A program made the position numbers and the translations under genes. A stretch of DNA of 20,093 nt from a virus, in the IMG/VR virus record IMGVR_UViG_3300031963_005395, positions 1 to 20,093 of that record. The stretch is one strand, 5' to 3'. Of this stretch, positions 2,979 through 14,836 are shown piece by piece (position 1 is the stretch's first letter; the number at the start of each line of letters is the position of its first letter). Under the pieces are notes generated by a model, which was not told the origin of the DNA, ran no database searches, and saw nothing but the letters and a program-made list of their open reading frames with translations.

Positions 2979-3344
2979 TTACCTCTTTCCGTGTTTTAAG
3001 TAATACATCGCTCCAGTTATTTCATCTTGGACAATTATTGGAGAATTTGGATTTTGTCGAGCATACTCTTTGATCTCCTGTCCAACTTCATCCCTACCAA
3101 CATAACTGGAGTAATGCTTTCTGTGTTTCTTTCCGTGCAATGCCTTGTTAAAGGCTTCAGAATTCACTTTGAATACTGGCTTTCCACCAAAAACATCATG
3201 AGGCTTTCTACGCAATATTTTCTTTGCGAGGATTGTGTCATATCCCGCAATCGGTTGTCCTTGAGCAGAACCCAATCCTTGCATTCCAGCGCCAACTGAA
3301 TTTGCTGGCGCTTCTTCGCTCAGAAATTCTTTGAATGTTTTCAT
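2979..3344 (-). CDS. Small basic protein with T4-type capsid-targeting N-terminus
   Basis: A 121-residue, Lys/His/Gly-rich protein. It opens with MKTFKEFLSEEA, close to the capsid-targeting sequence that I recall for the T4 internal proteins (MKTYQEFIAEA), and LSE fits the (L/I)xE rule for cleavage by the gp21 prohead protease. If so, it is loaded into the prohead, trimmed after about residue 10, and injected with DNA. The next stretch (PANSVGAGMQGLG) is Gly/Ala-rich and flexible; the body contains LRRKPHDVFGGKPVFKV and ends basic (YLKHGKR). No enzyme motif was seen. The ATG overlaps the stop of the preceding gene (TAATG). The gene is certain by context; packaging is inferred from the N-terminus. 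Confidence 0.85.
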   Translation of the reverse strand: MKTFKEFLSEEAPANSVGAGMQGLGSAQGQPIAGYDTILAKKILRRKPHDVFGGKPVFKVNSEAFNKALHGKKHRKHYSSYVGRDEVGQEIKEYARQNPNSPIIVQDEITGAMYYLKHGKR

Positions 3345-4399
3345 TACTTTTTCTTTTTATTTCCAGAACGATATCCTGGGAGTTTAGTTGTTGCAGCAAG
3401 ACCTTTCATTGGTCCACTTATACCTTTAACAGCATGCGTCAAAACATTTACTGTTTTTCCAGTTTCTTTGTGTACGCCTTTAATAGTAACAGATATTCCG
3501 CTACCTTGTTTATCCATTTTTAATTCTGAAAATTGAGACAAATGAGTATCAATATCTTTTGATGGCTCATCGATATGATGCGTCACACTTGATCCTGCCT
3601 CATTGTGAGAAGTGCGAGCATGCATTCTATAAACTGGACTTTTAGTTTTTGCTGCTACGACTCCACGAACATAGTCTTTCAATTCATCAGAAGATTTTTG
3701 AGAAAGTGCTTTGTGCATATCTTTAGCCATTGCTCGAGTTGTTTGAAGTTTACTTTCATTTGCTGCTTTACCGCGAGTTGATGTTTTCTCTTTTTTCCAT
3801 TGCTCGTGATTCTTTTCTCCACTACCAGTATAGCCTAAAGCAGAAAGTTTCTTTTTATGGCTTGCAAATCTACTTAATAAAGTCTTGGCTCCAGTCATGG
3901 ACTGGAGGCTTTCTAAACCTGGATTGCGAATATTTGGCTCTTTTTGAGAACCATATTTTAATCCAACGCCAACATGTTTTGTAGCACCAGTTTTTGGATG
4001 CTTAAATCTATACATAACGTCTGAATCGTTATTTGGATCGTCTTTACCTGTAAATTTGGCAACGTCTTTAGCGCCATTGCTAGTCCAAGCAACATGAGTA
4101 ATATGCTTAGGATTGTGACCTTGTTCGGTTAAATGCGCAGTCATATGTTCAGCAGAAGACTTAGCATGAGAATCAATTGTTTTATATTCTGCTGGTGTAA
4201 TTCTTGCTTTAATAGCGTTATGAGTTTCTTCTGGAGACTTACCAGAGATCTCATCACGATAATGAGTTGGAAATGTTTTCTCTGGGTGCATATGTCTGGC
4301 ATGCAAGAGTTCAAATAATTTACCCTTGTCGTCATTGGATACTGCTTCTACAAGAATATTCGAGTAGGCTTCTTCAATATATTGCTTAAACTTAAACAT
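3344..4399 (-). CDS. Predicted packaged protein with nuclease-like core
   Basis: A 351-residue basic, His/Lys-rich protein. The N-terminus MFKFKQYIEEAYSNILVEAV is short, amphipathic and carries two (L/I)xE-A triplets (IEE-A, LVE-A), as expected for capsid targeting and prohead-protease trimming. The middle holds HITHVAWTSNGAKDVAKFTG, then DDPNNDSDVMYRF (about 120-132) and HVGVGLKYGSQKEPN (about 142-156). An Asp on a strand followed about 20 residues later by a strand ending in xLK is reminiscent of PD-(D/E)xK nucleases, but the usual E/Q before xK is Gly, so this is only a hint. The C-terminus is a Gly/Lys-rich tail ending NKKKK. ATG 4399 has GGAG 7 nt upstream, within a small hairpin. Confidence 0.8.
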   Translation of the reverse strand: MFKFKQYIEEAYSNILVEAVSNDDKGKLFELLHARHMHPEKTFPTHYRDEISGKSPEETHNAIKARITPAEYKTIDSHAKSSAEHMTAHLTEQGHNPKHITHVAWTSNGAKDVAKFTGKDDPNNDSDVMYRFKHPKTGATKHVGVGLKYGSQKEPNIRNPGLESLQSMTGAKTLLSRFASHKKKLSALGYTGSGEKNHEQWKKEKTSTRGKAANESKLQTTRAMAKDMHKALSQKSSDELKDYVRGVVAAKTKSPVYRMHARTSHNEAGSSVTHHIDEPSKDIDTHLSQFSELKMDKQGSGISVTIKGVHKETGKTVNVLTHAVKGISGPMKGLAATTKLPGYRSGNKKKK

Positions 4400-4861: not shown

Positions 4862-5317
4862 TTAGACGTATTCGTTACTATTTCCGCTATCGTCGTCTCT
4901 TCTTGCTGGTAGATATCTTGGCTTCATTGGTGCTTCATCTTCATCACCCAATAAATCCTCTGTGCTCATGTTCTTTAGATCAGCCAATTCATCCTGACTG
5001 ACAACCTGAGCATAACCATCAACATATCCACTATCATTAGTATTGTACACGATATAGATGTAGAAACCAGGGTTTTGAGGAAGAGCATAGGTTATCTCAG
5101 CATCTAGATTTAGGAATTGATCCGTCATCGTTGCTGGAAGCAATACCCCATAACGCTCAAATGTGCCTCTGAGTTGCGCTAAGAATATTGGTGCATTCTG
5201 ATATGGTTTATCAGTTAATACTTCTAATTCAGAATTCAGAGTATCAACGTTCTGATCGCTCAACTTGAATGGAACGTCAATAGACTCTTCTTTTAAAAAA
5301 TCTAAAAATGTTTTCAT
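4862..5317 (-). CDS. Acidic protein with T4-type capsid-targeting N-terminus
   Basis: A 151-residue protein opening MKTFLDFLKEES, again close to the T4 internal-protein leader, with LKE fitting the (L/I)xE cleavage rule. After this comes a compact domain of about 95 residues (KLSDQNVDTLNSEL, LRGTFERYGVLLPATMTDQF, FYIYIVYNTNDSGYVDGYAQV). An acidic and Arg-containing low-complexity tail follows (LLGDEDEAPMKPRYLPARRD) with a Ser/Asn end. Unlike the other CTS-like proteins it is acidic, so it is more likely a core/scaffold or effector protein than a DNA-condensing peptide. Its ATG overlaps the upstream stop (ATGA). No enzymatic motif was recognised. Confidence 0.83.
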   Translation of the reverse strand: MKTFLDFLKEESIDVPFKLSDQNVDTLNSELEVLTDKPYQNAPIFLAQLRGTFERYGVLLPATMTDQFLNLDAEITYALPQNPGFYIYIVYNTNDSGYVDGYAQVVSQDELADLKNMSTEDLLGDEDEAPMKPRYLPARRDDDSGNSNEYV

Positions 5318-6141
5318 TTTATGTTTGCATCCATTTCAGGTTTGGTGTTAATTTTAGTTGCAGGCTTGTTAGGGTTTAGTTGTTTATTGCCACGAGCATT
5401 TTTTGCTGCTTCTACCACTCGATTGACTGCTTTTGTTATTTTAGTATTAACGGTTTCTTCGCCCATACGTTTCATTTCGCGTTCCATTGCACGTTGTATA
5501 GCGCGTTGCGCAGCAAGAGTTCCAGCCTGTGCTGGCTTTTCGACTTTTGAAAGTTTGTCAGATTCAGCCTGAGCCTTACGAACTGCAGGTGACATCTTGT
5601 ATCCTGCTTCGCGTTCGGCTTCAGTTACCTGCTCGACTTCTTCTTTTTGATATTTGTGAAGATTGGCTGCCCACTTTTGCCCAGTTTTAGATTTCAAAAA
5701 ATTATGCAGTTGATTATGGGGATTATCACCATAATTTCTAATATTAGGCAAATCTTTTCCGTGCAGTTTTCCGTTCGTTCCACCAAAATAGGTGTCATGC
5801 GTTAAAGTTCCAACACGTTTATCATTATGATGCACATCGTAATGGTGCATCTTTGCCTCTGAATCAAATTCCATTGGCATTTTGCGGCTCTTTGTTTTTG
5901 TGACTTCGTATTTGTTACTTGCTGCATCAATCTGCTCGGCTTCTTCTTTGATCACCTTAGACTTGACAACTGAGGCTTCTTTGATCATAAAGCCAAGAGC
6001 GCGTTGCTGATTTGCAGCACGATTCAAGGCTTCTTGTTCGCTTTTAGCCTCTACTAGACGAGTAACTGTATCAACACGACGACGTAATGAAACGTGCTCA
6101 TGAGCAGGGTTTGTATATTTGATTTGTACTTGATACTTCAT
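5314..6141 (-). CDS. Modular head-associated protein with EEVEQIDE-type linkers
   Basis: A 275-residue protein in three parts joined by two copies of the linker also found in the 677-aa and 868-aa neighbours. Part 1 (1-65) is a small domain, MKYQVQIKYTNPAHEHVSLR with RAANQQRALGF. Linker 1 is EEAEQIDA at 66-73, in which the final Glu of the IDE triplet is Ala, so it may not be cleavable. Part 2 (75-165) contains KMHHYDVHHNDKRVGTLTHD and HNQLHNFLKSKTGQKWA. Linker 2 is EEVEQVTEA at 167-175. Part 3 is Lys/Arg/Ala-rich and helical (RAIQRAMEREMKRMGEE and on), ending disordered. The role is probably in the capsid interior by context; no enzyme motif was seen. The ATG follows GAAGGT and starts 4 nt after the upstream stop. 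Confidence 0.8.
   Translation of the reverse strand: MKYQVQIKYTNPAHEHVSLRRRVDTVTRLVEAKSEQEALNRAANQQRALGFMIKEASVVKSKVIKEEAEQIDAASNKYEVTKTKSRKMPMEFDSEAKMHHYDVHHNDKRVGTLTHDTYFGGTNGKLHGKDLPNIRNYGDNPHNQLHNFLKSKTGQKWAANLHKYQKEEVEQVTEAEREAGYKMSPAVRKAQAESDKLSKVEKPAQAGTLAAQRAIQRAMEREMKRMGEETVNTKITKAVNRVVEAAKNARGNKQLNPNKPATKINTKPEMDANIK
5620..5946 (-). repeat. Two copies of the 24-bp EEVEQIDE-coding repeat
   Basis: The DNA at 5923-5946 and 5620-5643 (plus-strand core CTGCTCGRCTTCTTC) is nearly identical to the linker-coding repeats of the next gene upstream (6656-7663). Identity at the DNA level, not only the protein level, suggests recent module copying or recombination between genes. Confidence 0.75.
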
Positions 6142-6145
6142 TTTA

Positions 6146-8179
6146 TTAACCTTCTATTGCTTTTTTAGCGGCAGATCTGATACGGGCTTTAATCACGTCG
6201 CCATAAGTAATTTTGTTAGGGTTGCCATGATATTTAGCGAGAGATTTTTCGCTAGGTGTCACAGCAATTTTACCTTCTTCTGAGATTTCAGACTCTTCAT
6301 TCATCTCGCCTTGCATATAATTTGCAGTAGTCGAGATGTAATCTTCGGCTAGAGTAATCTTGCTCTGCACCCATTCTGGAAGGTTGGTATTATCTTCTAG
6401 CATATCATGCATGCGCTTGGCGTTATGCATAATGCTGCGAAGTTGAGACTTTGCCATATCACCTTCGTAGTCATACTCGCCTGCATCTGCAGCGTCTTTT
6501 GGTTCTTCGTTCATTATATCTTCCCTGGCTAAAACTTCGCGACCAGAGCGCAATGGTGAATGTCCTCTGTCGAATGGCACCTTGCCTTTGATTGCTGCTT
6601 CGACGCCCTTAGCACGAACCCAATTGTCTTTTTTCTTTTTATTTTCTAAATTACGTTCATCAACCTGCTCGGCTTCTTCTTTTTTGAGTCCAGCCTTCAT
6701 TGCTCTTCTAGCAAGATTACGGACATAGCGATGACCCGCTGGTTGTTTTCCTGGTGGCATAGTTGGCTTCTCCTTGACTGGACCACCGAGCGCTGCCTCG
6801 GCTTCCTGTTTAGTAACTTCATCAATCTGCTCGACTTCTTCAAAATAAGCCTTCATGTGCGCTTCGGTGTCTTTCTTGGTTTGATTTGGACCAAGACCGC
6901 CAAGTTTTGTCATGCGGCGAATATATTTTTTTGTAGCAGCAGCCGCGCGACGATTTTTATTGCGATTTAAGAAGTTTTTTACATCAGATGATTTTGGGCG
7001 AGCGGCTGCTTCATAATCGAAGCGCATGTTGGCTTCGTCAATCTGCTCGACTTCTTCTTTCTTCAACTCTTTCGCACGACGTTCTGATGCTGGCATTTCT
7101 TGATCTTGTTTTCTTTGCAACTCTGCAGCACGAACATCGGATGCTGGAACTTGACCCGTTGCACCAATGTCCTGTAGACGCTGAGCCAATGCTGGACGTT
7201 CAGCGGCAAGTTGAGCAACTGACTTTGTTGTATCAGTGTGTGCTTTTGCTCCCATTGAAGCCAATGACATTGCACCAACTGCGAGTGCCTTTGCAATTTT
7301 GCCTTCTTCGAGTTCTACTTCTTCTTTTTTAAGTTTTGCTGTCGCGAGTTTTATACCCGATGCTCTGTTTTTTATCTTTTGCGGGTTTACTGTTTGATAT
7401 TCTTTACCTCTCAAATCTTTTGCCATAGACTCAATTTCATTCTGAGCCTTTGACTTGTATGATTGCAGAGTTTTCTTTTTTAATTCATCAATCTGTTCGA
7501 CTTCTTCTTTTACTTTTTTATATTGTTTTTGCAATATTTTCAATGCACCTGATTTAACTTTATCGCGTTTAACTGGATTCGCTTTTTTTCCTAATGCTAA
7601 TCCTTCAGCACCACGACTTGAAGATGGTTGAGATTTATCCATTTCATCGAGTTCGACTTCTTCATCCATCGATGATCTGGTCACCTTGGAATGTAGGCTG
7701 TCATGGACATCGCGCAAGTCATCGTGTTGACGCTGTAGAGTTGGAACATCAAAACTTTTTGCTTTTTTGGCAACCGACTTCTCAGCAGCAGCCTTGATTG
7801 CTGCCATTCTCATTTGTGCAGGAGTGAGTTGAACTGGCTCAGTTCCGCGTTGTTTGTTCAATGCAGCAACTTCATCTGGCGACCAAACTCTGCCCTTGTC
7901 GGCTTTCTGAGAAACTCCAGCACCACCATGTTCTCCGCCAACGGCAAGACCCTTCGTAGCACCATAGGCAGTTGCGCTTGCTGCTGCAAGTTGCTTTGCT
8001 CTTACAGTTGGCTTGACTTCTTTGGATGCTTGCTTGACGCTTTCTCCAGCCCCATGACCGCTTGACTTGAGCCATGATTGAAATGCTGGATTCTTAGCAT
8101 GAACTTTCTTTAGTCTGTCTTGCATTACTTTTGAACCAGAAGTAAATGCTTTATCCCATGCTTTTGTTGGATCTGCCAT
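6146..8179 (-). CDS. Modular head polyprotein with repeated (I/L/V)xE linkers
   Basis: A 677-residue, Lys/Arg/Ala-rich protein built of short basic modules separated by acidic linkers: EEVELDE 173-179, EEVEQIDE 225-232, EEVELEE 286-292, EEVEQIDE 375-382 and 447-454, EEAEQVDE 501-508, with a looser NEESEISEE at 627-635. Modules between linkers are strongly basic: 233-285 has 15 Lys/Arg to 4 Asp/Glu, and 383-446 has 16 to 5. Module 240-283 and the segment near 570-625 (YEGDMAKSQLRS, NLPEWVQSKITLAEDY) are types I recall as recurring in aquatic phage proteins of unknown function. Each linker contains a triplet compatible or nearly compatible with the T4 gp21 prohead-protease rule (L/I)xE. The protein may therefore be a prohead core polyprotein cut into DNA-binding peptides; this is inferred. 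It starts 1 nt after the upstream stop. Confidence 0.85.
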   Translation of the reverse strand: MADPTKAWDKAFTSGSKVMQDRLKKVHAKNPAFQSWLKSSGHGAGESVKQASKEVKPTVRAKQLAAASATAYGATKGLAVGGEHGGAGVSQKADKGRVWSPDEVAALNKQRGTEPVQLTPAQMRMAAIKAAAEKSVAKKAKSFDVPTLQRQHDDLRDVHDSLHSKVTRSSMDEEVELDEMDKSQPSSSRGAEGLALGKKANPVKRDKVKSGALKILQKQYKKVKEEVEQIDELKKKTLQSYKSKAQNEIESMAKDLRGKEYQTVNPQKIKNRASGIKLATAKLKKEEVELEEGKIAKALAVGAMSLASMGAKAHTDTTKSVAQLAAERPALAQRLQDIGATGQVPASDVRAAELQRKQDQEMPASERRAKELKKEEVEQIDEANMRFDYEAAARPKSSDVKNFLNRNKNRRAAAATKKYIRRMTKLGGLGPNQTKKDTEAHMKAYFEEVEQIDEVTKQEAEAALGGPVKEKPTMPPGKQPAGHRYVRNLARRAMKAGLKKEEAEQVDERNLENKKKKDNWVRAKGVEAAIKGKVPFDRGHSPLRSGREVLAREDIMNEEPKDAADAGEYDYEGDMAKSQLRSIMHNAKRMHDMLEDNTNLPEWVQSKITLAEDYISTTANYMQGEMNEESEISEEGKIAVTPSEKSLAKYHGNPNKITYGDVIKARIRSAAKKAIEG
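6656..7663 (-). repeat. Six dispersed direct repeats coding EEVEQIDE-type linkers
   Basis: Copies lie at 7643-7663, 7484-7507, 7304-7324, 7034-7057, 6818-6841 and 6656-6679. Four (7484, 7034, 6818, 6656) are 24-mers of the plus-strand form TTCRTCAAYCTGYTCGRCTTCTTC; the other two are shorter variants with LDE or LEE. Spacing is irregular (about 150-270 bp) because the modules between them differ in length. The copies are in frame and embedded in one gene, so this is neither CRISPR nor an integration repeat. Confidence 0.85.
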
Positions 8180-8180
8180 G

Positions 8181-8450
8181 TTAATACTCGCTAATCTGTA
8201 GTTTTAAATCCGTTGTTCCGCGCTTTATTCTATGGAAGGTATATGACGGAATCACATACTCTTTCCCAACTATCAAAGGCTCTGGAAGGTCATCTTCGAA
8301 CTGAATTTCCCAGCCTTCTCCTTCCAAAACAGTCACAATTCTATTATTTTTATCGCGATGCCATACTAATTCTTCGTTCAAAACGTCCTTCGAGAATGTT
8401 CTGAAGAACGTTTTATTATTTAGTTTTTCGTCGGTATATGCTGACACCAT
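8181..8450 (-). CDS. Small cupin-like phage protein
   Basis: An 89-residue protein. ELVWHRDKNNRIVTVLEGEGWEIQFEDDLP, followed by a short gap and EYVIPSYTFHRIKRG, reads like the two conserved strands of a single-domain cupin: the first His with a following Glu-Gly turn, and the IPxxxxHR motif with a second His. The likely fold is a small beta-barrel that may bind metal; the substrate is unknown. Similar short proteins with FFRTFS and VWHRD are common in aquatic T4-like phages in my memory. I chose the ATG at 8450 (it overlaps the preceding stop as TAATG) rather than the in-frame TTG at 8459, because coupled overlaps are the rule here. It sits between two mosaic head-type genes. Confidence 0.75.
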   Translation of the reverse strand: MVSAYTDEKLNNKTFFRTFSKDVLNEELVWHRDKNNRIVTVLEGEGWEIQFEDDLPEPLIVGKEYVIPSYTFHRIKRGTTDLKLQISEY

Positions 8451-11056
8451 TACCACCAAGTCTTCCCAGAGTTGCTAAAGAATCTTGGCCATCTGCAAGC
8501 CCAGTACGAAGCCGAGGTCTTATCCTTGTTGGTCAAGCAGCGATGACGAGCGACGAAAGAACGAACTCTGGCTGGATCATTAAATTTCTTAGCCATTCCA
8601 GATTGACTGAAGCGAACCTTCTTTACGCCACCATCGCCTGTACGGACATAAACCGCACCGCCGCCGCCTTCGCGCCATGGCTTGCCGATACCTTTACCAT
8701 CTGTTGGGTCGGATTCTTCTTTCATAGGAACCGAATACTCTCTATACGGATCAAACTCATCATCGTCAGATCTGTGTTCTTTACCGCCCATTCGATTTAC
8801 AATTCTATTGTAGAGTTTAGATCTCGATGGCTCATCGCTGCTGCCAGCAAATACCATTGTTTTTAAACCGTGTTTTTTCGCGTGTTTTTGTGCAATAGAC
8901 TTAACTGTTGAGATGATTGAAGAAGCCTTTCCACCACCTTCGCCAGTAATTTCATGTTCCCCTGCTTCAAAATATTTTCTGTCTCCATGTTTACCTACTG
9001 GGACAAAATCTGCAGGTTTTTTTCCGTGATACCCGAACGATAAACTGCCCTTTTTACCTTGAAAGCGATTAATTGAGACAGAATAAGTATGTTGTAGATT
9101 TCCTTTTCCTGGGATTCGGAATGTGTACAGGTGTTCAGGTCCATTTTCGCTTTTAGGGTCTTCTGGGCGTAAAGTCCCGTGATATGTGTGTGGATAAACT
9201 GTGTTGAACACCTCATCAATTTGTTCCATATCTTCTTCGAATGGATAGTCAAGAATCACTTCCCGACCTTCGTAGATTGCCGTTTCACCGATGTCTGAAT
9301 TGAGCATATCGGCTTCCCATTCATCAGCAGGAGTATATTGTCCTTCTGCATATAGACGCTTGGCTTCGTTTATCATCTCAAAGAACATATCTGATCCTGG
9401 ACGGAAGACGTTTTCAGTGAACGAAATCTTATTCTCGAGATGGTACTCAACGGCTTCTCTAAGTTTTTCTTCTCTCGTAAAAACAGAAGTGATTGGCAAT
9501 CCATCCACTGTCATGTTTAATCTGTCTGGAGAAGGTGGCTTAGATTTTGTTTTTTTTGGTTTTAGCGTCGGAGTGACATCTACTCCATCAACAGTTTCTT
9601 TTCTTAAACTTCTAAAATCTTTTTTGGCATAAGCAGCAGTTTCATTACACTGACAATCGCCGCCGCATCCGCAATCTGTTTCTAATGGAGTTTCAATTTC
9701 TTGCTCTTGACCAGGAGTCATAGCAATAGCATGTTTTTTATACTCATCAGTTCCTACTAATTGCATTTCAGAAATATTGTTTTCTCTTGCTGCCAATACT
9801 TTTGTTCTATTACCCTTTCTAGGTAGTCTGCGAAGTTTTTTTGGTAGTTCTTCTTGAAGTTCTTCTTCCTCTTTTACTGGAACGCAATTAGGAACTTTTT
9901 TCCCATTCTTAGTTTTCATGCCGATTGCGGTATAACCCTTCCAGCATGCATTTTTTAGATCGCCAGTAGCCTTTTTAATTTCAGTTAGCGATTTTGGTCT
10001 AGGTTCATCTTTTTTTTCAATTTCTTTCATTTCTAAACCTAGAGAGATAACTCTTTCTAGGAGTTTCTGAATTTCGCTAGCAAAGAAAACTTTCTCCATT
10101 TCTGAAGATTCGTTTAGATTGATTGAGTTATTGAATACATGTGCCTCAACAAACGCAGCAAGTTTTTCTGTCTTTAGGAATTTATCAATACGCTTGTTTT
10201 CTTGAATAGGATTCTCGCGTTGTTCATTGCGTAGACGTGAGACTTTATTGGTAACAGAAACGTAAACGAAATCGTAGGTGTATCCGTGCTCATGCAACAT
10301 GTCTTGAATCTTAGCAATTCGCGATTCATCTAATGCGCCATTAATGACGAGATTAGTTTTGCTCTCATACAATTCATTTGCTGATTGATTTAGAATTTGA
10401 TCAGCCTGTACCTCTGTGAGATCAAAGCGTGAAAAGATGTTATTCAAAACATAGTCTTTTCCGCTACCAGGTGCACCAAGTAAGAAGATTCCAATAGGAT
10501 TGATTGATTCCATTTGCATTCCCGCTTTTACTGTGTCGTGTATTTGTTTGCCAAGTTTTTTATCACTGTAGTGTGAGACGAACTCATCTTTCTTTCCAGC
10601 AGCAACTAGACCGCGAAGTTTAGATGCTGACATTCCTTCTGCGCCTTCGGCATCTGGATCGCGATGTCCTGCTGACTTAACTTCCACTTTTTTAATTCCA
10701 GGAAATTCTTTTTTACGATATTTCGTTAGCAATCCCTGAAACTCAGCAACGCGATCAGAACCAACAATCATTGTCACATGAGTATGACCTTTTGATTCTA
10801 GGTGTTTCATCGCATCAATTGCTGTTCTAACTTTTTCGTGAGAAATAACATTTGCCTCAGGAAACAATTTGCGCATAGCGCCCACTTTTTCCTCATGCGA
10901 CATTGGATTTTTCTTAGGATCTTGCGTACGAGTAGGAAAAATATAATGAGTTCCACCAGTTGATTCGGCGTGATCCTGAACTGCCTTTACCAGTTTACCA
11001 TGACCCTGTTCGGTAGGAGGATTGAACCTGCCAAAGGTAAATGTTGCTTTACTCAT
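8450..11056 (-). CDS. Mosaic protein: nucleotidyltransferase, P-loop kinase and structural modules
   Basis: An 868-residue multidomain protein. Residues 1-180 form a nucleotidyltransferase of the NMNAT/cytidylyltransferase superfamily: TFGRFNPPTEQGHGKL (6-21) holds the GxFxPxxxGH signature, and GMSASKLR (141-148) corresponds to the SxTxxR-type motif. Residues 186-340 form a kinase-like P-loop domain with GAPGSGKD at 194-201. Residues 369-393 are a CWKGY...VPNC module that I recall from other phage proteins. A metal-binding-looking CGCGGDCQC lies at 462-470. EEDMEQIDEV at 607-616 is the same linker as in the neighbours. Residues 617-780 may be GNAT-like (SRSKLYNRIV). The C-terminal ~75 residues (VYVRTGDGGVKKVRF, RHRC, YWACRWPRF) match a phage module I recall as DUF5872. 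The enzyme substrate is unknown. The start overlaps the upstream stop (ATGA). Confidence 0.85.
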   Translation of the reverse strand: MSKATFTFGRFNPPTEQGHGKLVKAVQDHAESTGGTHYIFPTRTQDPKKNPMSHEEKVGAMRKLFPEANVISHEKVRTAIDAMKHLESKGHTHVTMIVGSDRVAEFQGLLTKYRKKEFPGIKKVEVKSAGHRDPDAEGAEGMSASKLRGLVAAGKKDEFVSHYSDKKLGKQIHDTVKAGMQMESINPIGIFLLGAPGSGKDYVLNNIFSRFDLTEVQADQILNQSANELYESKTNLVINGALDESRIAKIQDMLHEHGYTYDFVYVSVTNKVSRLRNEQRENPIQENKRIDKFLKTEKLAAFVEAHVFNNSINLNESSEMEKVFFASEIQKLLERVISLGLEMKEIEKKDEPRPKSLTEIKKATGDLKNACWKGYTAIGMKTKNGKKVPNCVPVKEEEELQEELPKKLRRLPRKGNRTKVLAARENNISEMQLVGTDEYKKHAIAMTPGQEQEIETPLETDCGCGGDCQCNETAAYAKKDFRSLRKETVDGVDVTPTLKPKKTKSKPPSPDRLNMTVDGLPITSVFTREEKLREAVEYHLENKISFTENVFRPGSDMFFEMINEAKRLYAEGQYTPADEWEADMLNSDIGETAIYEGREVILDYPFEEDMEQIDEVFNTVYPHTYHGTLRPEDPKSENGPEHLYTFRIPGKGNLQHTYSVSINRFQGKKGSLSFGYHGKKPADFVPVGKHGDRKYFEAGEHEITGEGGGKASSIISTVKSIAQKHAKKHGLKTMVFAGSSDEPSRSKLYNRIVNRMGGKEHRSDDDEFDPYREYSVPMKEESDPTDGKGIGKPWREGGGGAVYVRTGDGGVKKVRFSQSGMAKKFNDPARVRSFVARHRCLTNKDKTSASYWACRWPRFFSNSGKTWW

Positions 11057-12192
11057 ATTTTTGCTCTTAATAGTGCGCTTCTTGCACGATTTGCTTTACT
11101 AAATTCTAAGCGATTTACAAGTTTAATTCCCTTAGAAACAAACCCTTCGCCGCCTGATTCTTTTCCTGCGATTTCAGTTTTGACACCGCCATGCGCAGTT
11201 TTATTTAGAGCATCTGCAAGAGCGTTAGTTGCTTGCTGAACGTGGTGATGAATTTCAAATGAGCGATTGAAGGCTTCTTTGTTATTATCAATGTGAGCCA
11301 TGTGAGCATCGCGCTGCGCTGCTTTTTGATTCTTAGCCTTCTCAGTTTTTACTTTGTCGATTTCTTTTTGTAATCTTCCGCCGAGGTGTTTCTTATAACC
11401 TTCGACGCTTGGCTTTTCGCCAGTATCAAGAGTTGAGTTTATATAAGTTCTTAAGTGTGTTTCATGACCTGCTAAATGACCATAGTCATGGTTTTTCATT
11501 AGAGACTGAGCAGCAGAAATATGTTCTAGGACTTTCTTTTTTGCTGCAGCAGGAATTTTTTGTTGTTCTTTTGAAACTGAGTGATCAACCAAATGCACAT
11601 CTGGGTGAGAACGGAATTCTGACTGATCAATAACAGGCGTCGCCTTACGCTTTGGTCCTTTGAGTTCAGTATGAAGTGCTATACTGACTCTAGATTTAGC
11701 AAGTTTTTTGCCTTCTGAAGAATCTTTAGGGACTGAATATGAGACTGTATTAGGTGTGTGTCCAATACGACCACCCTTTTCTTCACGAGTTTCAGGTGTG
11801 GACATAAACCCACCCTGCCATTCTCCAGATCTATTAGGAAGAATTTTATGAGCGTGTGCAAGAATAGTCTTTAATGGACTTGCTAGATAAGGCTTGTGTC
11901 CATGCTGACGTTCAATGTCATCATTAGAATAATTATAACTTGAACCAGCGCCTTTATACTTTACTCCGACTTTGCCTGTGTCATCTCTTTTGATTTGAAA
12001 TGACATTCTGTCGTCAATTTTACGAGTGGCTGGGGTACGACCCATCGCAACACCCCTGAGTGTAGTCAGAGCATGTTGCGCGGGTTTCGGACCATCAAAC
12101 GTCAGATCGGAAGGGTGCTCTATGTGCTGAATGCCAACTGCTTCTTTGGCTTCTGATAGAAATGATTCTACGAATAGTCGAAATCGTTGCAT
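11053..12192 (-). CDS. CTS-like protein with degenerate KxDG nucleotidyltransferase-like domain (DUF6267-like)
   Basis: A 379-residue basic protein. The N-terminus MQRFRLFVESFLSEAKEAVG is amphipathic with LSE-A fitting prohead-protease trimming. Residues 21-180 follow the layout of a phage family I recall (HxEHPxD start, KxDGxP motif, GHxPxL, QGDxxxT, HTPNTxxYSVP, KVxxxxHT), including IQHIEHPSDLTFDG, GHKPYLASPLK, WQGGFMST, GHTPNTVSYSVP and SRVSIALHT. That layout resembles covalent nucleotidyltransferases/RNA ligases (motif I KxDG). Here the motif reads KIDDRMS (Lys58), with Asp instead of Gly and the downstream residues changed, so activity is doubtful. The C-terminal half is helical, His/Lys-rich. 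ATG 12192 follows GGAAGG. A 33-nt gap separates it from the sugar block. Confidence 0.8.
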   Translation of the reverse strand: MQRFRLFVESFLSEAKEAVGIQHIEHPSDLTFDGPKPAQHALTTLRGVAMGRTPATRKIDDRMSFQIKRDDTGKVGVKYKGAGSSYNYSNDDIERQHGHKPYLASPLKTILAHAHKILPNRSGEWQGGFMSTPETREEKGGRIGHTPNTVSYSVPKDSSEGKKLAKSRVSIALHTELKGPKRKATPVIDQSEFRSHPDVHLVDHSVSKEQQKIPAAAKKKVLEHISAAQSLMKNHDYGHLAGHETHLRTYINSTLDTGEKPSVEGYKKHLGGRLQKEIDKVKTEKAKNQKAAQRDAHMAHIDNNKEAFNRSFEIHHHVQQATNALADALNKTAHGGVKTEIAGKESGGEGFVSKGIKLVNRLEFSKANRARSALLRAKI

Positions 12193-12219: not shown

Positions 12220-12236
12220 ATCTATTTAGTATAGAT
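12220..12236. promoter_or_regulatory. Short palindrome at the sugar/head block boundary
   Basis: ATCTAT-N5-ATAGAT is a perfect 6-bp inverted repeat that spans the stop codon of the upstream SDR gene, in front of the 33-nt gap 12193-12225. On the minus strand its loop and 3' arm read ACTAAATAGAT, which is 6 of 8 to the T4 late element TATAAATA at best. It may be an operator, a weak promoter or chance in AT-rich DNA; there is no GC-rich stem with a T-run, so it is not a clear terminator. Confidence 0.25.
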
Positions 12237-13017
12237 TAGGTTTCATTGTACTCACAGCATTTACAAGAGCATCACGAACATCTGACATTGCGTCATATGC
12301 TGGAATGGTGCAAGTAGAACGACCTGCCGCCGTTGCAGCGCGGAATTCGTCTGGCGTAAACCACTGAGGCTGGATACCCATAATCTCAGCGAGTTCATGC
12401 ATGTTCACAGAACCCTTGTTGACTAGGTTATAATACCCATCTGGAGCCTCATCCAACATCAAATCGCAGGCTACATTGACCGCTTCATCAAGATCTGTCA
12501 AAGAATTTTGACCTGCATCGATCAATTTTGCGTTTTTGGCGTAGTTGTAGACCTTGTATAGGTAGTTTTTTGGCTCAACCTTACCCGTAAATGGCATACG
12601 AATACGATAGACCTGAGCCTTATCGCCCAAGTATACGTCTGAAACGCCCTTTGCAACTGAATAGGTGCTGCCAAAGAAGTTTGGTGGGGCATCTACGGTT
12701 TGAATATCGCCTGTATAGATACAACCGCTTGAAAAATGCGACATTCTGACGCCATTTTCCTCAGCAGCGGCATACAAAAGTCCTGGATAAATTGCGTTCC
12801 CGTAAACTGTATTCTGCTTATCCAATTCACAAGCATCCACGTTTGGAGTTCCAGTTACGCCAGCGCAATTTACCACCCAATCATAACGGTTTTTGTGTAA
12901 AGCACTGATTGCAGAATTGTGGGATGCCATTGTTACGACAAATCCACGCTCCACCAAATTGTCGAATACCTTTTTACCTGTCCAACCACGACCAACTACT
13001 AGAAAATGCATAATCAT
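12226..13017 (-). CDS. SDR-family 4-keto-sugar reductase, possibly epimerase/reductase
   Basis: A 263-residue extended short-chain dehydrogenase. The Rossmann GxGxxG is at 9-14 (GRGWTG), NCAGVTGTPNVDACE at 50-64, SSGCIYTGD at 96-104 and the catalytic pair Tyr119/Lys123 in YSVAK; RIRMPF and NSLTDLDEAV follow. It resembles RmlD-type reductases, and more specifically the plant and giant-virus-like bifunctional 3,5-epimerase/4-reductase (UER/NRS-ER), which share AGVTGxPNVDxCE, a GCI segment, FxGSxYSxxK and RxRMP as I recall. With rmlA and rmlB just upstream it would finish synthesis of a deoxysugar nucleotide such as dTDP-L-rhamnose using NAD(P)H. GAGGG lies 7 nt before ATG 13017, supporting this start over an ATG two codons later. 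It starts 2 nt after rmlA. Confidence 0.85.
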   Translation of the reverse strand: MIMHFLVVGRGWTGKKVFDNLVERGFVVTMASHNSAISALHKNRYDWVVNCAGVTGTPNVDACELDKQNTVYGNAIYPGLLYAAAEENGVRMSHFSSGCIYTGDIQTVDAPPNFFGSTYSVAKGVSDVYLGDKAQVYRIRMPFTGKVEPKNYLYKVYNYAKNAKLIDAGQNSLTDLDEAVNVACDLMLDEAPDGYYNLVNKGSVNMHELAEIMGIQPQWFTPDEFRAATAAGRSTCTIPAYDAMSDVRDALVNAVSTMKPNLY

Positions 13018-13019
13018 AA

Positions 13020-13892
13020 TTAAACCCTCATTGTCAAAATTTTGTTTAGATACTTACCATAATCCGACTTCTTATACTTATTCGCCGCATATTCAAGATC
13101 CCATGCAGAAATCCATTCATTACGATATGCAATTTCTTCAGGGCAAGCAATCATCGTTCCAGTTCTACGCTGGACTGAACCGACGAACGTTGACGCCTCA
13201 GCCAATGATTCAAACGTACCTGTATCAATCCAAGCAATACCACGGTTTAGATACTCAACGTTGACCTGATTCTGTTCTAGATACATTCGATTCAGATCAG
13301 TAATTTCCAACTCACCACGAGCAGATGGCTTGAGTTGTTTTGCATACTCAACAACCTTGTTGTCATAGAAATACAATCCAGTAACGGCATAGTTACTTGG
13401 AGCAACTTCTGGCTTTTCAATAATGTCTACGGGGTCGCCATTCTCATCAAGTTTCAAAACCCCGAATCGTTCTGGATCATGTACATGATAGGCAAACAAT
13501 GTACAGCCAGGATTACTCTGTGCGAAATTGAAACGATTGATTAGATCATTTCCATAAAAAATGTTATCGCCAAGAATCAAAGCAACGTCGCTCTTCCCAA
13601 TCCACTTTTCAGCAATTAGAAAACACTCAGCAATACCATTAGGTTGTAACTGAGTTTCGTAAGATATTTGTAAACCCCACTGATTTCCATTACCGATTAG
13701 ATTCTCGAATGGTGCTCTATCAGCAGGTGAAGTGATAATCATAATATCACGAATGCCAGCAAGCATCAGCGTCGACAATGGATAATATACCAGCGGCTTG
13801 TCATAAACTGGCAATAGTTGCTTGGATACAACTTTCGTGCATGGATAGAGACGAGTTCCCAACCCACCACTCAATATAATTCCCTTTCTCAT
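13020..13892 (-). CDS. rmlA: Glucose-1-phosphate thymidylyltransferase (RmlA)
   Basis: A 290-residue nucleotidyltransferase that joins dTTP and glucose-1-phosphate to dTDP-glucose plus pyrophosphate. The signature is clear: GGLGTRLYPCT at 9-19, SKQLLPVYDKP at 23-33, QPNGIAECF at 83-91, the metal-binding LILGDNIFYG at 105-114, and IIEKPEVAPSNYAVTGLYFYD further on. Length is normal for short RmlA enzymes. I chose ATG 13892 rather than the in-frame GTG at 13901: it overlaps the rmlB stop as ATGA and has GGAG 8 nt upstream. The order rmlB-rmlA-SDR with overlaps indicates one translationally coupled unit supplying an activated deoxysugar. Possible uses are decoration of virion proteins or DNA, or alteration of host surface polysaccharide; the sequence does not decide. 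Confidence 0.95.
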   Translation of the reverse strand: MRKGIILSGGLGTRLYPCTKVVSKQLLPVYDKPLVYYPLSTLMLAGIRDIMIITSPADRAPFENLIGNGNQWGLQISYETQLQPNGIAECFLIAEKWIGKSDVALILGDNIFYGNDLINRFNFAQSNPGCTLFAYHVHDPERFGVLKLDENGDPVDIIEKPEVAPSNYAVTGLYFYDNKVVEYAKQLKPSARGELEITDLNRMYLEQNQVNVEYLNRGIAWIDTGTFESLAEASTFVGSVQRRTGTMIACPEEIAYRNEWISAWDLEYAANKYKKSDYGKYLNKILTMRV

Positions 13893-14836
13893 AAGTACCA
13901 CTCCACTGTCTTTTCAAGACCATGTATAATATTAGTTTTCGCTTTCCATCCAAGTTCATTGTAAATCTTTTCAGCATTCATAGCATAACGCATATCGTGA
14001 CCCTTTCTGTCTGTCACGAAATTTAACCAATCAGTATAACGATTGACATCCTTACCCATAATCTCAAGAATCAATTTGATCATTTGAATGTTTGTCAATT
14101 CAACTCCACCACCGATATTGTATCGCTCGCCAGATTTGAAATTCTGACCGATCGTCAACAAAGCCTCGCAGTGATCTTCGACAAACAACCAATCGCGAAC
14201 GTTGATGCCCTGCCCATAAACAGGGATTGGTGTATTGTTTTTGATGTGGCGAATAATCGTTGGAATAAACTTTTCGTTGTGCTGACGAGGACCGTAGTTA
14301 TTCGAACAATTAGTCACAACCGCGTCAATCTTATGTGTGTTTACATAAGCACGAACCAAATGGTCGCTGGCTGCTTTGGTTGCTGAGTATGGATTGCGAG
14401 GATCATATGGAGTTGTTTCACTAAACTCAGGATCATTAGGACCAAGACTTCCATAGACCTCATCAGTCGAAACATGGACTAACTTGCCGCCATACTTGCG
14501 AATGCACTTTAGAATGTTGTGAGTGCCATTAATATTAGTGCTGAGGAAATCATCGTCACCACGAATAGAATTGTCAACGTGAGACTCAGCAGCAAAATGA
14601 AACGTAATGTCTGGTTCATAGGTGTGATAGATCCCATCCAGTGAATCTAGATTGCGAATGTCGACTTTCTTGACGGTAAGTCGCCAATCGTCGTAGTATC
14701 CGTTTAGATTTGATCCGTTAGCAGCGTATGACTGATTGTCAAGAACGACAATCTCATCGCTAGGATATTTTTTCAGGTGAGAGATTACAAAATTAGAACC
14801 AATAAATCCCAAACCGCCAGTCACAAATGTCGTCAT
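13889..14836 (-). CDS. rmlB: dTDP-glucose 4,6-dehydratase (RmlB)
   Basis: A 315-residue extended SDR that converts dTDP-glucose to dTDP-4-keto-6-deoxyglucose using bound NAD+. Motifs in order: GGLGFIG at 7-13, the conserved FAAESHVDNSI at 81-91, catalytic Thr124-Asp125-Glu126 in VSTDEVYG, Tyr150/Lys154 in PYSATKAASDHLV, NCSNNYGPRQ and EKFIPTIIRH, then a C-terminal RYTDW. The TDE triad is what distinguishes the dehydratases from simple epimerases. Its ATG overlaps the stop of the upstream zincin-like gene (ATGA) and no good Shine-Dalgarno is visible (TTTATAAAAATAATTT before ATG), so translation probably depends on coupling. It is slightly shorter than typical cellular RmlB (about 340-360), as is usual for compact phage versions. 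Confidence 0.95.
   Translation of the reverse strand: MTTFVTGGLGFIGSNFVISHLKKYPSDEIVVLDNQSYAANGSNLNGYYDDWRLTVKKVDIRNLDSLDGIYHTYEPDITFHFAAESHVDNSIRGDDDFLSTNINGTHNILKCIRKYGGKLVHVSTDEVYGSLGPNDPEFSETTPYDPRNPYSATKAASDHLVRAYVNTHKIDAVVTNCSNNYGPRQHNEKFIPTIIRHIKNNTPIPVYGQGINVRDWLFVEDHCEALLTIGQNFKSGERYNIGGGVELTNIQMIKLILEIMGKDVNRYTDWLNFVTDRKGHDMRYAMNAEKIYNELGWKAKTNIIHGLEKTVEWYL

Follow-up and report, generated by a model that had tools for sequence, protein, structure and literature searches.

Why would a T4-like phage string small proteins together on one chain, with nearly the same acidic linker between them time after time? Each internal protein known from T4 comes from a gene of its own. P0001, a 677-aa modular protein of a T4-like freshwater virus of bacteria, raises the question: its ORF occupies 6146..8179 on the minus strand (stop codon within the range) of the stretch analysed here, 20,093 nucleotides of IMG/VR record IMGVR_UViG_3300031963_005395 (the window; all features located below are on its minus strand). 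A preliminary description made from the letters alone took the protein for a possible prohead polyprotein, whose linkers would be cut by a gp21-type protease to release several DNA-binding peptides.

The chain and its linkers

Six clean linkers and one looser one, every one with [I/L/V]xE, divide P0001 into pieces of 42-179 aa. Linker 1, EEVELDE (aa 173-179; 7643..7663), has its predicted cut at LDE|M; linker 2, EEVEQIDE (aa 225-232; 7484..7507), at IDE|L; linker 3, EEVELEE (aa 286-292; 7304..7324), at LEE|G; linker 4, EEVEQIDE (aa 375-382; 7034..7057), at IDE|A; linker 5, EEVEQIDE (aa 447-454; 6818..6841), at IDE|V; linker 6, EEAEQVDE (aa 501-508; 6656..6679), at VDE|R; and the looser linker 7, EESEISEE (aa 628-635; 6275..6298), at ISE|E or SEE|G. 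Residue positions, a strict regular expression and shuffles bear out the count of linkers as originally given: the expression matches four of the seven, and 20,000 residue shuffles yield a mean of 0.00055 matches and a maximum of one, which rules out repetition by chance. The triplets were also rightly said to fit or nearly fit the T4 rule, (L/I)xE: P3 is L or I in five of the six clean linkers and V in one, and the looser linker reads ISE. The residues at P1' are, in order, M, L, G, A, V, R and G; the small residues (A, G) said to follow often do so in 3/7 linkers of P0001, and in 52/286 linkers among the matches listed for a wider set.

The N-terminal module (aa 1-179; 7643..8179) lacks a capsid-targeting-like start: its N-terminus, MADPTKAWDKAF, fails the pattern, which four neighbouring genes match. 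Related modules begin proteins of loci L140 and L124. The chain further comprises a family A module (LxKxTLxSY...KNRxxGI; aa 233-292; 7304..7483), a family G module (ANMRFDYEAAARP; aa 383-454; 6818..7033), a family H module (VTKxEAExxLGGPV; aa 455-508; 6656..6817), an acidic two-helix module marked by EGDMA (aa 557-629; 6293..6511) that has counterparts in T4-like phages, S-WAM2 and S-SM2 among them, and a basic C-terminal module (ITYGDVIKAR; aa 636-677; 6149..6274) with related C-termini at L140 and L126. Neither a peptidase nor any other catalytic domain was detected, no Pfam family scoring above its cut-off; PHROGs, Pfam and a phage-record search gave no full-length relative, and PHROGs and Pfam no match to the T4 core proteins gp67, gp68 and gp22. 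The phage-record matches are confined to a C-terminal stretch at approximately aa 557-624, the EGDMA module, and come from 12 records (eight Synechococcus and four Flavobacterium), several being double entries of one phage.

Less their last ten residues, the six internal pieces carry net charges of +9, +9, +3, +11, +6 and -3. The two K/R to D/E counts on which the modules had been called strongly basic (15:4 and 16:5) are reproduced when linker acids are omitted, and five of the six internal pieces are indeed net basic, one of these being nearly neutral; the piece at aa 509-635 is acidic (-3). The notion of a neutralised precursor has to be given up, since P0001 as a whole has a net charge of +25 (126 K/R versus 101 D/E, pI 9.5), and the DNA binding ascribed to the modules, a reading of charge, is unsupported.

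Family A is modeled as a two-helix hairpin (pLDDT 80, pTM 0.34), as is the EGDMA module (pLDDT 86, pTM 0.65); Foldseek found no match for the former in a viral library or for the latter in the PDB. Both helices extend into the linkers in the family A model, so the linkers are not predicted to be disordered. The EGDMA hairpin of P0001 itself contains two further [LI]xE motifs, from which it follows that the motif by itself would not suffice as a cut signal.

Modules are shuffled between phages

Relatives were sought in scans of viral contigs covering at least 120 and at least 600 stretches; of 600, 267 encode relatives, and 80 were retained. The non-redundant set comprises, among the matches listed, 178 linkered proteins with 1-6 strict linkers each (111 have one), and cutting these at their linkers yields 563 modules that form 58 clusters of two or more, with changing neighbours. 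Clustering was done with linkers removed; with linkers kept, clusters become chained through linker tails. With linkers likewise removed, 203/212 internal modules among the matches listed are net basic, versus 478/1275 control windows. The linkers themselves have D at P2 in 275/286 cases and L, I or V at P1' in 186/286 (matches listed).

Modules are permuted between phages, and DNA matches end at linkers. Locus L138 has 97% DNA identity to aa 174-232 of P0001 and then, directly, 91% identity to aa 374-454, with two modules left out between them; at L126 the modules run in the order 5-6-other-4. Within the P0001 gene, 105/188 DNA match ends fall no more than 12 nt from a linker, versus 16% expected, although the matches are not independent of each other. 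Codon usage at linkers is also biased when set against the remainder of those genes: CAG, for example, encodes 78% of Gln versus 29%.

What is fixed at a module boundary

Loci were chosen by a family A pattern, KxTL[GA]SYxKKA, that contains no linker, giving at least 120 viral stretches and three bacterial ones. Among the 123 copies in the matches listed, E stands at P1 in 122 and I, L or V at P3 in 119, with M in two more; the sole exception at P1 is bacterial and probably a chance match. (A bacterial origin of the module was considered and rejected: 84,980 species genomes scanned with the module pattern gave the three stretches, one of them probably chance.) The strict linker expression fails in 94/123 of these copies, some near it and others as diverse as ITE, VTE, INE, LFE and LQE. 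Omitting the bacterial copy and another whose upstream region is short leaves 121, of which 92 are non-canonical and thin to 58; among these matches listed, P1 is E in 58/58 and P3 is I, L or V in 57/58. For comparison, [ILV]xE occupies 1.85% of positions in linkered proteins. The information content of the thinned, diverged boundaries is 4.60 bits at P1, 2.98 at P3, 2.46 at P2 and 2.04 at P5.

Over all loci at hand, and among the matches listed, [ILV]xE precedes 171/176 copies of family A, 15/15 of F, 20/20 of I, 7/7 of G, 6/8 of H and 3/4 of C; the canonical linker accounts for 2, 4, 4, 2 and 1 copies of F, I, G, H and C, respectively, whose loci were partly picked by linker. An EF-hand-like module conforms in part, with Glu at P1 in 24/24 copies and [ILV]xE in just 6/24 (matches listed). 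No support is drawn from family D (zero matches to its expression), E (a loose pattern, 16/50), K (offset, 2/5) or L (one copy). To judge by these counts, several apparently unrelated modules have an [I/L/V]xE boundary in common, and the EF-hand-like module shares it partly. Modules of this kind also stand behind [ILV]xE in Synechococcus phage S-SKS1, Prochlorococcus phage P-TIM68, Caulobacter phage Cr30 and BUCT-ZZ01. The diverged linkers of Cr30 still have LEE, LDE, INE or LNE at the boundary, and one protein begins MRSKILAE|ISKKTLANY. Product AGS80949 of Cr30 (host C. crescentus CB15) contains several family A modules, and UTS52006 is the gp67-slot product of BUCT-ZZ01 (host Synechococcus elongatus PCC 7942); cuts predicted in these products include LEE|ISGGTL, LDE|ISKATL and LYE|LSSKTL.

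Linkers and capsid-targeting-like N-termini

Comparison of the segments found after strict internal linkers with the N-termini of ORFs gave 73 junctions; removal of five with a strict linker left 68. In 56/68, [ILVMF]xE lies within two residues of the module start ([ILV]xE in 38/68); without that tolerance the figure is 46/73. The corresponding controls are 10.3% when random ORFs are read at the same positions and 1.0% when the boundaries are shifted. A capsid-targeting-like pattern begins 41/68 of these N-termini, and 40 of the 41 carry [ILVMF]xE. Examples are MKTYKQLQE|RINMAKAKMGDV, MKSFLEFQKLDE|VNHRE and MLKFKQYLDE|VKKPTG. Of the 12 misses, the EF-hand-like module accounts for ten, and in six of those it stands behind ILQQE or VLQQE. 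Before modules, then, the linker and the capsid-targeting sequence are interchangeable as far as these junctions represent them.

The EF-hand-like module (ALKGxQHKIDKNKNGKID) follows many N-termini (L015, L029, L030, L098 and others), at junctions with Glu at P1 that often read LQQE or FME, not [ILV]xE.

Capsid-targeting starts were also tried, and rejected, as a class mark of linkered genes: 26/148 linkered genes have one versus 182/1563 in the comparison, a weak enrichment (p=0.047), and 18/148 versus 126/1563 have a start plus a site (p=0.089).

The neighbourhood of P0001 and its genome

A 275-aa neighbour (5314..6141) has two linker-like stretches, EEAEQIDA and EEVEQVTE, and an 868-aa neighbour (8450..11056) with cytidyltransferase PHROG and zeta-toxin Pfam matches has a linker, EEDMEQIDE. 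Four genes have capsid-targeting-like starts: MKTFKEFLSEE (3312..3344) on a 121-aa gene at 2979-3344, MKTFLDFLKEE (5285..5317) on a 151-aa gene at 4862-5317, MFKFKQYIE (4373..4399; it reads on as MFKFKQYIEEA) on a 351-aa gene at 3344-4399, and MQRFRLFVESFLSE (12151..12192) on a 379-aa DUF6267 gene at 11053-12192. We take such starts (e.g., MKTFKEFLSEE) to resemble the T4 capsid-targeting letters. With four genes of this pattern, the stretch looks like a cargo island.

Elsewhere in the window, a lysin-like gene at 1228-2379 combines GH19 chitinase and M15 peptidase matches in a single protein, and three genes at 12226-14836 resemble, by eye, enzymes of nucleotide-sugar synthesis. A cytidylyltransferase of P-TIM68 has the capsid-targeting-like start MKSFTSFFTEA and may be compared with the linkered, cytidyltransferase-matching neighbour.

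A 197,424-bp virus record, G002, encodes a protein 100% identical to P0001 over 677 aa, together with gp23 and a gp21-type protease (S77; PF03420, E=2.6e-31), of the kind whose absence would have refuted the preliminary reading. The linker expression matches four of its 249 ORFs of at least 60 aa, the 868-, 677- and 275-aa genes that the window also contains and a 183-aa gene, the last of which sits between the portal gene and gp21. A loose capsid-targeting expression matches nine of the 249; four of the nine are in the P0001 neighbourhood and at least one, a helicase-like gene, is probably a chance match. In G002 the P0001 gene does not lie between gp20 and gp23: it is at 33-35 kb and the core operon at 175-182 kb. 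Thirty-six linker- or module-holding records, picked mainly by length in batches of 19 and 17, were tested for both head genes: gp21 is present in 12/19 and 14/17, and gp23 in 12/19 and 15/17, one of these merely an end fragment (a 61-aa frame). Both genes are present in 18/18 tested records of 100 kb or more.

Linkers in prohead core genes, and predicted sites in the capsid protein

A linker or linker-module unit lies within a gene in the gp67, gp68 or gp22 slot in 12/26 portal-to-capsid regions. Parsing of 21 of the 26 regions scored 12; L242 and L377 were dropped as chance, and on reading L368, to which the parsing had given no score, and L379, which lay outside the parsed 21, were added. 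L367, L375 and L378 were read and left uncounted, and L369 stands by pattern alone. The 26 are not all independent, G014 and G019 being near-identical. The core region of Cr30 (L378), outside the 12 counted, has one LDE|A stretch. In G002 a gp67-like protein, normally short, bears an extra linker-module-linker. A very basic core peptide occurs as a separate gene behind MKTFKEFLLTE|V (G022), IIAE|A (G003), LNE|G (G015), LDE|A (G004) and LEE|A (G007 and G014); in G002 it is a fusion, again behind LEE|A. The bars here were set by eye at the closest [LI]xE; if they are right, acidic residues are tolerated at P2.

A very basic peptide, separate or fused, adjoins gp21 at L236, L238, L239, L242, L246, L247 and L368, and several of these peptides have GGKVQRR and GYTIRGG motifs. 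It looks like a packaged DNA-binding protein.

The site predicted for the capsid protein, taken as the last [LIVFM]xE ahead of the conserved FDP motif, provides a second standard. Among 25 distinct sequences it has E at P1 in 25/25 and L (23) or I (2) at P3; D or E is found at P2 in 0/25, and L, I or V at P1' in 0/25. At P2 and P1', the linkers are thus unlike the predicted capsid sites of the same group in these 25 sequences. EEVEQ, moreover, is conserved beyond the needs of L/I-x-E, which may reflect common descent, a core-docking signal or both.

A proposed mechanism

The reading of the linkers as gp21-type sites accordingly stands in part: module-anchored P1 and P3, interchange with capsid-targeting sequences, insertion into core genes and gp21 in the genome speak for it, while P2 and P1' differ from the predicted capsid sites and linkered genes are barely enriched in capsid-targeting starts. 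On balance we think it probable that P0001 is a gp21-processed, modular chain of internal proteins, in which cutting, packaging, ejection and the function of the pieces are read from sequence. Small, mostly basic modules, each shuffled independently of the others, make up the chain, which would enter the prohead core alongside the scaffold. Once active, the prohead protease gp21 (S77) would read the linker as [I/L/V]-x-E and cut after Glu; the separate peptides would stay in the mature head beside the DNA and would be ejected into the host, as T4 internal proteins are.

The units in gp67-, gp68- and gp22-slot genes would also suit a linker that docks its protein to the prohead core, as an internal capsid-targeting sequence that need not be cut, the chain being packaged whole or lost with the scaffold; conservation of EEVEQ past the protease rule and the dissimilarity of P2 and P1' to the predicted capsid-protein sites lean the same way. 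That the linker is such a docking signal, not necessarily cut, nonetheless seems unlikely to us, because P1 and P3, the two positions named in the T4 rule, are the most constrained in diverged linkers (4.60 and 2.98 bits), and because these modules are also found behind capsid-targeting-like propeptides; in T4, gp21 removes such propeptides (PMC9026906).

Less likely again is that the linker is mainly a recombination seam, at which like DNA enables module exchange and cutting is unnecessary. The codon bias (CAG for Gln), the permuted module orders and the clustering of match ends at linkers (105/188, from matches that are not independent) are what a seam would produce; a seam accounts for shuffling and not for constraint on the protein, which at the thinned diverged boundaries fixes P1 and P3 (58/58 and 57/58) while other positions vary more, and it is compatible with cleavage. 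That [ILV]xE belongs to the module fold as its N-cap, with a structural role rather than that of a site, is suggested by the predicted hairpin of module A, whose first helix takes in the linker, and is most improbable given that the motif is common to several other modules without apparent relation and to capsid-targeting-like N-termini.

Predicted cleavage and exchange at the same linker lead to a broader reading, which we hold tentatively and with a good deal less confidence than the processing of P0001: across environmental T4-like phages the linker might serve as protease site and recombination seam of a cargo-cassette system, whose inserted modules would be packaged, cut free and injected. 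If this is true, neither a new promoter nor a new targeting signal would be needed for phages to re-sort peptides for anti-defence or host takeover. Should the chains be cut as predicted, many unnamed small modules of aquatic T4-like phages become candidate injected proteins, recognisable from sequence by their boundaries, which would offer a route to mining possible anti-defence peptides. It would also be an unusual polyprotein strategy for DNA phages, with processing in trans by the capsid protease.

Relation to known systems

No description of a linker-chained cargo system was found in the accessible parts of the open-access literature, preprints excluded. The nearest published idea in those sources is that of polyvalent proteins, multi-domain proteins that are proposed to be injected and partly processed and have been likened to RNA-virus polyproteins (PMC5512222). 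Their processing is put down to peptidase domains within them, and enzymes make up many of their domains (PMC5512222); P0001, in contrast, has small modules and no detected peptidase domain, and its supposed protease is that of the head, acting in trans. In SPN3US and PhiKZ, the prohead protease cuts after Glu at a short motif, several times in some proteins, and 13 of the 14 known cuts of SPN3US belong to N-terminal propeptides; a chain of shuffled modules is not described in the accessible parts of these accounts (PMC10052503, PMC7411985, PMC9026906).

T4 itself offers closer parallels. Its protease follows the rule L/I-X-E and cuts the core proteins gp67, gp68 and gp22 into several fragments (PMC9026906). 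P0001 is like these core proteins in that linker units lie in gp67-, gp68- and gp22-slot genes (12/26 regions), and unlike them in being encoded elsewhere and having no database match to them. The propeptides of T4 IPI, IPII, IPIII and Alt are also cut by gp21 (PMC9026906, PMC3012670), and the role of the T4 capsid-targeting sequences has been described (PMC9026906). With these internal proteins P0001 shares the gp21 family in its genome, the [L/I]-x-E rule at module boundaries, pieces that are mostly basic, and modules that are found behind T4-like capsid-targeting N-termini as well. Whereas each T4 internal protein is a single cargo with one N-terminal targeting propeptide (PMC9026906, PMC3012670), repeated internal sites link the modules of P0001 into a chain, and the modules are shuffled between phages. 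P0001 is best described, on its present evidence of sequence, as a putative linker-chained variant of the T4 internal-protein system.
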